Positions 431 to 41,835 of a stretch of 64,000 nt of DNA are shown here, piece after piece. Origin of the DNA: Sulfurovum lithotrophicum (GTDB taxonomy: Bacteria > Campylobacterota > Campylobacteria > Campylobacterales > Sulfurovaceae); assembly GCF_000987835.1 (NCBI RefSeq), contig NZ_CP011308.1:1860001-1924000 (forward strand), in the 5' to 3' direction. How positions within the stretch are numbered: the stretch's first letter is position 1; every line of letters begins with the position of its first letter. The notes under the pieces are model-generated. The model made no database searches and was not told the DNA's origin. It saw only the letters and a program-made list of their open reading frames with translations. The position numbers and the translations under genes were made by a program.

Positions 431-2408
431 ATCCTACTCCTACTCTTTCATTTTTATGTTTCAGGTTCCCCGGCAGTTCATAGTCGAGCAGTGCTTCCTG
501 AACGGTGAAACGGTCGACAGTATCAAGTATTTTTTTGATCGCTTCTATCTCGGCTTCTCTCTGTGCGCTCAAGGGATTTGCGATAAGAGAATCTTTCCTT
601 CCATACCCCCTGAAAGCCGGCGGCATCTCCATCTCCATGATGTCGATCTCTTCATAGTGGATCGTCGGAAGCGTATCTTCTTCATTCGGCCAGGTAGTGA
701 TGGTACGCTTGAGCCAGTGCATATCGTCCCGCTTGGGGAAATCTTCCCGGTAATGCGCCCCACGGCTCTCGGTTCTCTGCAGTGCCCCTTTGGCTACACA
801 CAGTGCCAGTTTGAGCATCTTGGTGACACGGTAGACCTCGTTGAGCCCCGGGTTGTTCCCCATACTTTTGGACTCGACCGTGATCTCTTTGGTCTTTTTG
901 AGCAGCTCTTCAAGCTGGTGCACCGCATCGAGCAGGTCGTCACCGTTCCTGAATATTCCTACTTTATCCTGCATGATGTTACGCATTTCATCCTTAATGT
1001 CAAAAATGTTCAGACCACCGTCCCTTTCCAGTATCTCTTTCAGGTAATTCACCTGTTTCTGTAAATGCTCCTCTATCACGGAAGTGTTGGTATTGAGATG
1101 GGTCTCTTCGCAATACTGTGCAAAATACTCACCTACGATCATACCCGAGACCACCGCTTCACTGACCGAGTTTCCTCCCAGTCTGTTAAAACCGTGCAGG
1201 TCCCAGCATGCTGCTTCGCCTGCACTGAAGAGGCCCTTCATCGTCGTACTCTCACCTGTTGGCTTGACCCGTATACCGCCCATGGAGTAATGCTGCATAG
1301 GCAGTACGGGCATCCAGCCCTTTTCACCTTCATCCGCAGGGTCTATGCCGTTGAAACTGATGGCGATATCCTGTACGTCTCGCAGGTTTTTCTCTATGTG
1401 TTCACGCCCCAGAATGGAAATGTCGAGCCACAGATGGTCGCCATAGGGTGATTTGACCCCTTTGCCTTTTCTGATATGCTCTATCATCCGGCGGCTCACC
1501 ACGTCTCTTGAGGCAAGCTCTTTCTTTTCGGGTTCATAGTCAGGCATAAAACGGTACCCGTCCTTGTCACGCAGCACACCACCGTCCCCGCGGCACCCTT
1601 CTGTCAGCAGTATGCCCGAAGGTACGATCGGTGTGGGGTGGAACTGTACCGCTTCCATGTTGCCCAGTTCGGCGATCCCTGTTTCAAGCGCAATGGCCGT
1701 ACCGATCCCCTTACAGATGATCGCATTGGTCGACTGTTTGTAGATACGACCGTAGCCACCGGTGGCGATCATTGTTCCACGCGCCACATAGGCGATAAGC
1801 TCTCCGTTGATCAGGTCACGCACCACAACACCGTGGCAGACTCCCTGATCATGAATAATAGAGATCGCTTCCTTTTTATCGTGGATGGTCACATCCCGCT
1901 TCAACGCTTCGTTCGCAACAGCATAGAGCATCGTATGCCCCGTAGCATCGGATGTGTAACAGGTACGCCACTTCTTCGTTCCGCCGAAATCACGCGCATT
2001 GATGAGACCGTACGCCTCTTCACGCTCCGTGATCGTCTCTTTTTTCCCATTGATGACCACGGTATGGTCACCCTTGCCAATACGGCTCCATGGCACACCC
2101 CAGGCCGCCAGTTCACGTATCGCTTTGGGTGCGGTGGTCACGAACATACGTGCAACCCTCTGGTCACAGCCCCAGTCGCTTCCTTTTACCGTGTCAGCGA
2201 AGTGGACATCTTCATTGTCTCCTTCTCCCATGATGGAGTTGGCGAGACTCGCCTGCATACCGCCCTGTGCAGCTGCCGAGTGAGAACGTTTCACCGGCAC
2301 CATACTCAGCACCATAGTATCAAGCCCTTTCTCTCTGGCAGCGATGGCGGAACGCAATCCCGCCAGACCCCCGCCTACGATCAATGCATCGGTATATATT
2401 ATCTTCAT
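423..2408 (-). CDS. frdA: fumarate reductase flavoprotein subunit
   Basis: Catalytic subunit that reduces fumarate to succinate with electrons from menaquinol; it may run in reverse. The protein has 661 residues (Wolinella enzyme about 656). It shows the dinucleotide motif VGGGLAG (residues 11-17), the covalent FAD histidine in HSAAAQGG at His43, HPTP around 257, and the catalytic arginine in [11 protein letters not shown] at Arg301, the same number as in Wolinella. It sits between frdC (ATGA overlap) and frdB (overlap), in the usual C-A-B order. No truncation or missing catalytic residue was seen. Confidence 0.97.
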
Positions 2409-39078: not shown

Positions 39079-39963
39079 CTATGTACCACGTACTCTTTGG
39101 TTACGCTCCTCTTCCTGCGCTTTATACAACTGCGCACAACCGATGGAAAGCTCACGCACTTTCAGAATGTAGTTCTGTCTCTGCGCCTGAGAGATCGCTT
39201 TTCTGGCATCCAGTACATTGAAGGCATGCGATGCGATCATACACTGGTCATAGGCAGGAAGCGGTAGTCCTGCTTCAAGACAGAGCTTGCACTCATTACT
39301 GGCATCTTCGAAATGTTGAAAAAGTTTTTCTACCGTTGCAACTTCAAAGTGGTATTTGGAAAATTCATATTCGCTCTCTTTGTGCACATCCGCATAAGTC
39401 GTCACTTCATCACCATTCCTGTTCCAAACGATGTCAAATACCGACTCCACCCCCTGAAGGTACATTGCCAGTCTCTCGGTACCGTAAGTGATCTCCACGG
39501 CTACCGGATCGCAGGTGATCCCTCCTACCTGCTGAAAGTAGGTGAATTGTGTCACTTCCATACCGTCAAGCCAGACTTCCCAGCCAAGGCCCCAGGCACC
39601 CAGTGTCGGTGATTCCCAGTTATCCTCGACAAAACGGATATCATGTTCTTTGAGGTTGAGGCCAAGATACTCCAAGGATTTAAGGTAAAGCTCCTGGATA
39701 TTGTCCGGACTCGGCTTGATCAATGCCTGGAACTGGTAGTAGGCACCAAGCCTGTTAGGGTTTTCTCCGTAACGTCCGTCGGTCGGACGACGCGACGGTG
39801 CCACGTAGGCAGCTGCCCACGGCTTTGAATCCAAACTTCTCAGCAGTGTAGCAGGGTGAAAGGTCCCTGCTCCCGCCGGAATATCATACGGCTGGACAAT
39901 ATTGCATCCCTGCTCTGCCCAGTATTGTTGGAGTTTTAGTAATAGTTCACTAAATGTTAGCAT
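39079..39963 (-). CDS. glyQ: glycyl-tRNA synthetase alpha subunit
   Basis: Catalytic subunit of the alpha2beta2 bacterial GlyRS. 294 residues: [43 protein letters not shown]. The start overlaps the stop of the nuclease-like gene by seven bases, and its ribosome site (AAGGAA) lies inside that gene. The beta subunit is not in the window. Confidence 0.96.
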
Positions 39964-40478
39964 GCTAATTCCTTTTTAAAATGTTTTTTGTATTCATGTG
40001 TAAACCATTGAACGTCATTCGTATATATTTCATCAAAGTATTCACCTTTATATCTCTCTAAACCGAACTGTACTTCATTCTTTTCAATTCCACGTCGCCA
40101 CCGTGCTACACCATCTTTATATACTACACAATAAATAAATTTATACTCTCTTTTATTTACACTATTATCAGAGAATATTTCTTCGAGTACGGTCTTTCCA
40201 TTAGTTAACTTTTTAGTTATTTGTTCCCTATCAATTTCACTGTATTTTTGATTTTTAAACTCAATACAATAAACTTTTTCCCCATCTATTAAAAGAGCAT
40301 CATAAGAAGCAGGCTGTTTTGTTGGGTATTGCTCTTTAACAATTTTATCAAAATCATAAACAAGTTGACTTTCATCTTGACACAAATAGATACTATTTTT
40401 ATTATCAAAGCTAGTCTCTTTAAGAGTAGACACTTGTACAGAGAAATTAGACTCAAAAATAAATGTAGCATCAGCCAT
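39957..40478 (-). CDS. putative PD-(D/E)XK-type nuclease of a two-gene cassette
   Basis: 173 residues from the ATG at 40478, which overlaps the ATPase stop by eight bases. The middle shows an Asp60 in ASYDALLI, then after a turn Glu73-x-Lys75 in YCIEFKNQ, the spacing and beta-strand context of a PD-(D/E)XK nuclease core. The rest is Lys/Glu/Tyr-rich and unknown to me. Base composition is far lower in GC than the flanking genes, as is the ATPase gene, suggesting shared transfer. Function inferred from motif and partner. Confidence 0.6.
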
Positions 40479-41835
40479 TTTGCAACTTTTCGCTATCCAT
40501 TTCATCAAACACATCAAATGGCTCAGATAATTTCTCAAAAATTTTTGATAAAGTATCTGAATTGTTATTATCTACTTTATTAATATTTCCATTTTCTGCT
40601 AAATAAAAATCTGCCGTAATCTTTTCTCTTTCACTATATCGTTGCAGAGCTTCAATCATATAAGGGCTATGTGAAGTAACCAGTACTGTAATATTAGCTT
40701 TCACTAAGTTTGTAATCAATTCTGCGTATTTTATTTGCCACTTTGGATGCAAATGGACTTCAGGTTCATCTAAAATTAACAAAGATCTCTCATCAATGAA
40801 CCCACTTTTTACTAACATTTGAATAATCCCAAAAGATTTAATCCCTGTTGCAGTGTTAATACTATTAAAAGTTTCTCCATTTGCTGAAATAAAAATAAAG
40901 TCTTTTGCTTTTTTGTTGTACTTAATATTACCTTTGATAATTCCAAATAATTGATTTACTAAATCATCTGTCGTTTCATCACTAAAAAACATATCAAAAT
41001 CTGAAAAATCTTCAATATAAACTGACTCTTTTAATTTCGAAATTAAATCTTTAACATGCAATGTTGTATTAGGTCTTTTGTTCAATAAAATTCTGTCATC
41101 TTTCTCTACTTCTTCAAAGTATGTTTTTGAATTTTCTATTGATTCAAATAACTGCAACAAGACCGGTGTTTCGATAAAAGAAGCATCCGTAAAATAAAGC
41201 TCATCATAGATATGAAAATGTTTAACTTTATTCTTTGACATTTCAACATCAAAAATTATATTCTCGCCCTCTGTTCCCTTAATAAAAGAAGATTTTTGAT
41301 CAAAATTTTGATTAGTTACTTTCCCTTTAAATTCTGAAATCAAAACTTTTTGAAATGCTCTCTTCTGAATTTCAGTTTTATTTTCTTTTGTTAATGCAAT
41401 TTTTTTTAAATCCAATAATTTTTTTTCCGACTCAATGATTAGTGAAGCATCTTTTGTTTCTATCGAATCAAACAATGATTGTTGTTTCAATGTATCTAAG
41501 ATTTTTAATCTTTCATCAATGGCGTTAATTAAAGAAGTTCTTTTAATATCTCTTATAAATGCTGGGGGATAAAAAATTTTTCTTATTTCAATATTCTTTG
41601 AATAATCAACTTTTCGTCGTAATTGAAAATAATTTTTTTCAATTAAAGAAAATATTCTTTCTTCTTTGCCTTCCTCTAAATCTTCTTTATATCTACTACT
41701 TGCTTTTATGATAGAAAATATTATCTTTCCAACTGTACTTTTACCAGTATTATTTTCTCCAGCTATTACAGTAAGCCCATCTAACTTAACATTAGCTTCC
41801 TTAATCATACCGATATTTTTTAACTGAAATTCCAT
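40471..41835 (-). CDS. ABC/OLD-type AAA ATPase of a two-gene cassette
   Basis: 454 residues. Walker A GENNTGKST (26-34), signature-like ATGIKSFG (329-336), Walker B SLLILDEPEVHLHP (351-364) and H-loop TSHSPYM (387-393), with about 290 residues of mostly helical insertion between the ends of the ATP site: the SMC/OLD-type layout of defence ATPases (AAA_15/AAA_21). No Toprim domain follows; instead a separate nuclease-like gene overlaps it. GC is roughly 25-30 percent against about 45 in neighbours. Starts 26 bases after purE. Confidence 0.85.
   Translation of the reverse strand: MEFQLKNIGMIKEANVKLDGLTVIAGENNTGKSTVGKIIFSIIKASSRYKEDLEEGKEERIFSLIEKNYFQLRRKVDYSKNIEIRKIFYPPAFIRDIKRTSLINAIDERLKILDTLKQQSLFDSIETKDASLIIESEKKLLDLKKIALTKENKTEIQKRAFQKVLISEFKGKVTNQNFDQKSSFIKGTEGENIIFDVEMSKNKVKHFHIYDELYFTDASFIETPVLLQLFESIENSKTYFEEVEKDDRILLNKRPNTTLHVKDLISKLKESVYIEDFSDFDMFFSDETTDDLVNQLFGIIKGNIKYNKKAKDFIFISANGETFNSINTATGIKSFGIIQMLVKSGFIDERSLLILDEPEVHLHPKWQIKYAELITNLVKANITVLVTSHSPYMIEALQRYSEREKITADFYLAENGNINKVDNNNSDTLSKIFEKLSEPFDVFDEMDSEKLQNG

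Follow-up and report, generated by a model that had tools for sequence, protein, structure and literature searches.

The cassette between purE and glyQ

We analyzed a window of 64,000 nucleotides (nt) from the sulfur-oxidizing bacterium Sulfurovum lithotrophicum (NZ_CP011308.1, positions 1,860,001 to 1,924,000), the genome of which is a single 2.22-Mb contig; its named relatives belong to Sulfurovum and other Campylobacterota. Between purE and glyQ, the window contains a two-gene cassette (39957-41835, minus strand, as are all window features described here), in which the gene for an OLD/SMC-type ABC ATPase of 454 amino acids (aa; 40471..41835) is followed by a gene for a 173-aa protein with the features of a PD-(D/E)XK-type nuclease, the putative effector (39957..40478). 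The pair is probably a two-gene anti-phage system of the kind that combines an OLD-ABC ATPase with a small PD-(D/E)XK nuclease, here with a nuclease family of its own. At the sequence level, this reading is carried by the constant pairing of the two genes, the constraint on the predicted active site, the co-variation of ATPase tail and nuclease, and the exchangeable middle of the ATPase.

The larger protein is assigned to the OLD/SMC-type ABC ATPases because of its Pfam and PADLOC profile matches and the structures closest to its AlphaFold2 model. It matches AAA_15 (E = 1e-17) and also AAA_21 in Pfam, phrog_14430 over its whole length (1e-68) in PHROGs, and, in PADLOC, HEC-02A (3e-28), PD-T4-4_A (4e-26) and then Menshen NsnB, PARIS AriA and Septu PtuA. 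Its AlphaFold2 model, with a predicted local distance difference test (pLDDT) score of 79.7, is closest in Foldseek to Septu PtuA, Rad50 and Gabija GajA (E about 1e-6). All features of such an ATPase are present: the ABC fold, a Walker A motif (GENNTGKST, residues 26-34, 41734..41760; GENDTGKST in relatives), a signature-like motif (NTATGIKSF, residues 327-335, 40831..40857), a Walker B motif (LLILDEPEV, residues 352-360, 40756..40782) and the H-loop histidine H389 (40669..40671). G331 and K333 of the signature-like motif, E357, P358 and E359 of Walker B, and H389 are invariant in 36 ATPases. Two other segments stand out by comparison with relatives, namely a hypervariable middle (residues 46-290, 40966..41700), presumed to be a sensor insert from its low identity between relatives and its exchange between genera, and a C-terminal tail of 44 residues (411-454, 40474..40605), presumed from its co-variation with the nuclease to be the nuclease dock.

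We read the smaller protein, whose family has no curated profile, as a predicted PD-(D/E)XK nuclease, because D60, E73, K75 and K90 are conserved down to about 20% identity and the AlphaFold2 model is confident (pLDDT 89.5; predicted template modeling score 0.86). Ten positions (M1, S23, C33, D44, D60, E73, F74, K75, K90 and L140) do not vary across 28 relatives from three effector classes, some of them only about 20% identical; they include the active-site stretch D60 ... E73-F-K75 (40254..40301) and the further lysine K90 (40209..40211), on the helix that follows the ExK strand. In the model, strands 61-65, 68-75 and 113-120 and helix 84-104 have pLDDT values above 90; E73-F-K75 ends one strand, D60 lies just ahead of the partner strand, and the helix with K90 comes next. 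The predicted protein thus displays the conserved acidic residue, the E-x-K on a neighboring strand and the core strands with flanking helices that are expected of the fold. Consistently, almost all neighbors found by Foldseek in the PDB are PD-(D/E)XK proteins, with cap-snatching RNA endonucleases at the top and HincII and N.BspD6I below them. The ratio of nonsynonymous to synonymous substitution rates (dN/dS) of 0.10-0.29 between close relatives, together with the invariant catalytic residues in the 28 relatives, argues that the small gene is more than a chance reading frame. Searches of Pfam, PADLOC, NCBIfam and PHROGs with the small protein of the window gave nothing significant (best, NERD, E = 0.024), and a search of the PDB by sequence gave no match; among its relatives, the best Pfam matches are NERD (3e-4) and SduA_C of Shedu (7e-4), both weak.

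The cassette has a guanine-cytosine (GC) content of 27.6%, compared with 45.9% in the surrounding DNA and a mean of 45.8% (standard deviation 2.5, minimum 39.4%) in the remainder of the window, measured in non-overlapping stretches of cassette size (1872 nt), and it is low in GC in every host, whatever the host's own GC. The genes around it read as trhP, purE, glyQ and a Nif3-like gene. The ATPase stop and the nuclease start share an 8-nt overlap, ATGGCTGA (40471..40478). This start is an ATG; the open reading frame finder also gives a longer frame from a TTG (193 aa), and the ATG is preferred because relatives support it. At the cassette ends we found just short, chance-like direct or inverted repeats rather than transposon-like ones, signals for a promoter or terminator of its own did not exceed the shuffled expectation, and no integrase linked to the cassette was seen in the window. 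The cassette has likely spread by homologous recombination in the flanking genes.

An earlier, sequence-only reading of this DNA had placed both genes at these positions, called them far more AT-rich than any neighbor, and named the same flanking genes; it had also pointed to the Walker A, Walker B and H-loop motifs, to a PD-(D/E)XK-like partner with D60, E73 and K75, and to the lack of an HNH, Toprim or helicase domain in the cassette. All of these observations were borne out by the analysis above, and the profile searches with the small protein matched no non-nuclease family.

Occupancy of the purE-glyQ junction

Regions upstream of glyQ were taken from genomes of the bacterial family of the source, Sulfurovaceae, and a junction was counted when purE and glyQ stood in tandem on one contig, as in 110 genomes. 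A homologue of the small protein is encoded in 34 of the 175 genomes of the family. ATPase or effector matches occupy 34 of the 110 junctions, decayed copies included, whereas the other 76, some of them from near-complete genomes, hold none and mostly have a gap of 24-454 bp. Thus, the pair is not fixed at the locus. To call the cassette inserted, as in the sequence-only reading, is nevertheless too simple, as in this family it behaves as a locus-specific recombining element with ends fitted to glyQ and not as a chance insertion. Decay takes several forms: locus L150 retains 85 aa of the ATPase, the nuclease of L073 has an internal deletion, and the ATPase of L164 is broken. L164 and L059 both belong to the draft genome G133, and in both the ATPase frame is broken and the nuclease frame intact, through assembly error or real decay.

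At each locus with a readable upstream gene, that gene is a homologous ATPase gene, intact or broken, and the small gene follows it immediately. In Sulfurovaceae, homologues of the nuclease of the window almost all touch purE or glyQ, the exception being an extra copy in G133, and in a second family of the same order the arrangement is purE, ATPase, class 2 nuclease, glyQ (L232). At least four nuclease or effector types were found at the junctions. The cores of class 1, to which the window belongs (...S-F-D-A-L-Y-I...C-I-E-F-K-N-Q), class 2 (...S-S-V-D-S-L-L-I...F-V-E-F-K-D) and class 3 (...S-P-D-M-L-Y-I...F-V-E-F-K-S-S) align as one nuclease family, and almost every class 1 or class 3 relative has the same 8-nt overlap between ATPase and nuclease genes. 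Class 4 has the core ...C-D-K-V-I-E-C...V-E-E-K-S and a conserved C-C near its start, and is always paired with a second ATPase family, beginning ELAHFKNFAKLKDT (...GKPGTGKS), with which it occurs at the junctions L046, L056, L129, L157, L160, L126, L134 and L137. Membership of class 4 in the nuclease family of classes 1 to 3 was considered and found unsupported (hhalign probability 0.2). Occupied junctions carry one to three pairs, with three in L071 and in L046 and two in L056 and L076.

Several junctions hold further genes. In L071 (5547-10414), three tandem ATPase-effector pairs with effectors of three classes are flanked by a small glutaredoxin-like gene on one side and glyQ on the other. 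In many genomes (L062, L063, L071, L076, L126 and others), a glutaredoxin-like gene of this kind (approximately 85 aa) separates purE from the cassette or from glyQ, so that the junction also takes up non-defence genes. In L147, the ATPase has a class 3 tail, but a 137-aa protein (891-1301, minus strand) stands in for the usual nuclease; this protein has a weak match to a ricin-type beta-trefoil lectin (Pfam E = 8e-6, below the cut-off). The match at the L169 junction is solely to this lectin-like reading frame of L147, with no ATPase beside it.

The almost constant position in Sulfurovaceae, and co-transcription with purine and translation genes, could also be expected of a housekeeping or DNA-repair pair (a RecF/RecN-like ATPase plus a nuclease) that is native to the purE-glyQ operon and has disappeared from many lineages. 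We consider this origin very improbable in view of the 76 junctions without the pair, near-complete genomes included, the low GC in every host, the four nuclease types, the tandem pairs and the hypervariable middle, as well as the homologues found elsewhere (unrelated loci, plasmids and phages).

The end of the cassette is joined to glyQ. In the window, the last codons of the nuclease gene, Cys and stop, contain the glyQ start codon in a 7-nt overlap (ATGCTAA, 39957..39963) that the sequence-only reading did not mention, and AAGGAA within the Lys-Glu-Leu codons just upstream (39969..39974) is the likely ribosome-binding site of glyQ. The same holds for most class 1 junctions, where the nuclease end ...AAGGAA(T/C)TA-N-N-(A/G)-TG(C/T)-TAA supplies the ribosome-binding sequence and start codon and glyQ begins M/V-L-T-F-S; at empty junctions, glyQ mostly starts M-N-K-x-x-(I/L)-T-F-S. 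This native start is mostly kept in a class 1 subgroup (L047, L048, L051 and L052) and in classes 2 to 4. The terminal Cys is probably not there for glyQ alone, because most class 1 relatives away from glyQ share it. Decayed copies in L073, L150 and possibly L133 retain the glyQ start. L133 (genome G091) is a 973-bp junction with no detectable ATPase or nuclease, yet it has the short glyQ start, preceded by codons resembling a class 1 nuclease end (Y-K-R-T-L-A-C-stop), possibly the scar of a lost cassette.

Such a joint raises the question of whether the pair persists as a selfish element, welded to an essential gene by a 3' end that supplies its start codon and ribosome-binding site. The short glyQ start in most class 1 junctions, compared with the longer one in nearly all empty ones, speaks for welding, as do the deletions within L073 and L150 that spare the glyQ-joining end. 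As the full explanation, selfishness nonetheless appears improbable: a function is suggested by the strong purifying selection on the nuclease and by the exchange of the middle of the ATPase, classes 2, 3 and 4 and some class 1 junctions lack the welded end, and homologues occur at other loci. Welding to glyQ may be true in addition to defence. Putative defence genes are here retained within a housekeeping operon in the absence of a mobility gene, and their end also serves as the start of an essential gene; defence-island scans would miss a place of this kind.

Exchange of ATPase segments and nucleases

Comparison of 31 ATPases of the first family revealed segments with different histories. 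The N-terminus (first 45 residues) is 80% identical and the core (residues 320-410) 66-70% identical regardless of nuclease class, and identity of the middle between relatives is 0.18-0.21. The tail is 63% identical within a nuclease class versus 30% between classes. In a Mantel-type test of ATPase segment identity against nuclease identity over 26 pairs, the tail gave a rho of 0.92 (p ≤ 0.0005), the middle 0.21 and the core 0.23 (both p about 0.05), and the N-terminus 0.09. Within class 1 alone, rho for the tail was 0.81 and the other segments were not significant.

Individual pairs of loci display the same exchange. L066 and L171, from different genera, have middles that are 93% identical and nucleases of different classes; in DNA, the 2 middles are approximately 90% identical, versus 70-80% in neighboring housekeeping genes. 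Conversely, the nucleases of L054 and L060 are 94% identical in DNA and the first halves of the ATPases are unrelated. The long ATPase middle of the window is found again in L071, beside a class 1 nuclease, and in L075, beside a class 3 nuclease. The simplest reading of these sequences is that the middle forms one module, and the tail and nuclease another.

On this basis, we tentatively propose that the purE-glyQ junction may serve Sulfurovaceae as a dedicated immune locus. Its exchangeable parts would be a phage-sensing cassette, formed by the middle, and a killing cassette, formed by the tail with the nuclease. Homologous recombination, acting through the conserved segments of the ATPase and through the housekeeping genes on either side, would reshuffle them without a mobility gene and give strain-specific combinations of sensor and effector. 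If true, the swaps would resemble restriction specificity genes exchanging recognition domains. The natural swaps, in which near-identical middles accompany different nucleases or near-identical nucleases accompany unrelated middles, indicate candidate sensing and docking residues and bear on how OLD-ABC ATPase systems recognize phages.

Function and relation to known systems

Outside Sulfurovaceae, Campylobacterota and large sulfur bacteria (the Beggiatoa/Thiomargarita group) have homologous pairs at different loci, and related pairs are carried by Klebsiella and Acinetobacter plasmids (NZ_CP103616.1 and NZ_CP113936.1) and a gut phage record (MT835532.1). The small proteins of the two plasmids and MT835532.1 join the profile family of the window (hhalign probability 97.9, E = 6e-13). 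In the last record (L238, 2706-7197), a MobL-type relaxase gene directly precedes the pair, so the record may represent a mobilisable element instead of a phage. Searches of IMG/VR contigs with ATPase profiles retrieved further pairs, with, as read from translations, an integrase nearby in L255, a repressor nearby in L257, and, in L256 (7976-9840), the pair directly upstream of the genes for the small and large terminase subunits (terS/terL). With the small protein, tblastn gave no match in the plasmid set and one weak match in the phage set, and a scan of IMG/VR gave none; P0001 alone likewise retrieved nothing from IMG/VR. Gene order in the plasmid, MT835532.1 and IMG/VR pairs is that of the window; they differ in that they occur in other hosts, at 21-29% identity and not at glyQ, and we found no published name for them. 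Carriage of related pairs on plasmids and in phages, once beside terminase genes, supports a defence role and fits defence cargo.

Two tested anti-phage pairs likewise combine an OLD-ABC ATPase with a small PD-(D/E)xK nuclease: WonAB, from the WASA-1 prophage of Vibrio cholerae, and PD-T4-4 of E. coli (PMC12137116). WonAB aborts infection once phage replication has begun and needs residues of both the ATPase and the nuclease; it leaves genomic DNA intact and blocks translation, with ribosomal or transfer RNA as the suggested target, and no phage escaping it could be obtained (PMC12137116). By analogy, we infer a phage trigger, a dimer, docking of the nuclease, an RNA substrate and an abortive outcome for the pair described here. 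The ATPase would dimerize on ATP and serve as the sensor, its variable middle meeting a phage-made trigger and its C-terminal tail holding the nuclease; binding of the trigger would alter the ATPase cycle and switch the nuclease on, which would then cut nucleic acid and stop the infected cell, most likely by cleaving RNA so that translation is blocked, the action proposed for WonB. The matching of tail and nuclease agrees with a prediction made for WonAB, in which WonB attaches to the C-terminal extensions of the WonA dimer (PMC12137116).

A nuclease that cuts invading phage or plasmid DNA directly, as in restriction, while the cell survives, would agree with the typical fold of restriction enzymes, the weak NERD and SduA_C (Shedu) matches in Pfam, and the DNA nucleases with which the related ATPases PtuA and GajA act. 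This is unlikely here, considering that the cassette has no methylase or other self-marking gene, that the closest structural neighbors include RNA-cutting cap-snatching enzymes, and that WonAB spares genomic DNA (PMC12137116). A toxin-antitoxin pair, with the nuclease as toxin and the ATPase merely as antitoxin, has a low probability. Two small overlapping genes, a patchy spread and an effector of toxic type would suit it, and WonB is indeed toxic if overproduced, but that toxicity requires WonA and its ATPase activity, the reverse of what an antitoxin does (PMC12137116). Furthermore, the ATPase gene comes first, its hypervariable middle would be unneeded in an antitoxin, and the G133 loci keep an intact nuclease frame beside a broken ATPase, assembly errors being possible.

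Several points weigh against a WonAB-like defence pair and its proposed workings. Every Foldseek match of the nuclease in the PDB is weak, with E of 0.02 or more and none below 0.001, and the predicted fold rests on the model and the motifs. RNA as the substrate would follow from the WonB analogy and these same weak matches. The pair was set beside WonAB by its gene plan and by the published description of that system. Finally, tail and nuclease are adjacent in DNA, so that linkage alone could give part of their correlation; the drop in rho from 0.92 in the tail to 0.23 in the adjoining core argues against linkage as the full explanation.

Among systems in the wide OLD/SMC-ABC fold group to which the ATPase belongs, Septu has the HNH nuclease PtuB as its effector, whereas the small protein of the window has no HNH match and an ExK core; Gabija has the Toprim domain of GajA and the UvrD-like helicase GajB, and the cassette encodes no Toprim domain or helicase; and the PARIS effector AriB (DUF4435, Toprim-like) has no match in Pfam or PADLOC searches. 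HEC-02, a PADLOC candidate, is closer, its HEC-02A being the best PADLOC match of the ATPase and its partner being of similar size with an E-A-K core. PD-T4-4 likewise shares the ATPase match and a small partner with a D...E-x-K core. Unlike the ATPase profiles, those of the partners miss the nuclease of the window, and profile comparison ruled it out as HEC-02B (hhalign probability 0.6) and as PD-T4-4_B (1.1).

With WonAB, the pair shares the 2 genes in the same order, an OLD-type ABC ATPase directly before a small PD-(D/E)xK nuclease. WonB is placed by prediction on the C-terminal extension of its ATPase; here, identity of the tail follows that of the nuclease, with the two also adjacent on the DNA. 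A further resemblance is that the ATPase inserts vary among systems related to WonAB (PMC12137116). WonAB differs in being prophage-borne, and modularity, a hypervariable middle, nuclease classes and a fixed chromosomal locus were not reported there (PMC12137116). The sequence-only suggestion of an undescribed system therefore does not hold for the kind, which is already known from WonAB and PD-T4-4 (PMC12137116). The nuclease family itself has no match in PADLOC, and profile comparison separates it from both PD-T4-4_B and HEC-02B. We found no papers on the locus, the reshuffling or the glyQ joint in an incomplete search of the open-access literature. Compared with the known systems, what is new here is the purE-glyQ locus, the reshuffling of the presumed sensor and effector, and the joint with glyQ.

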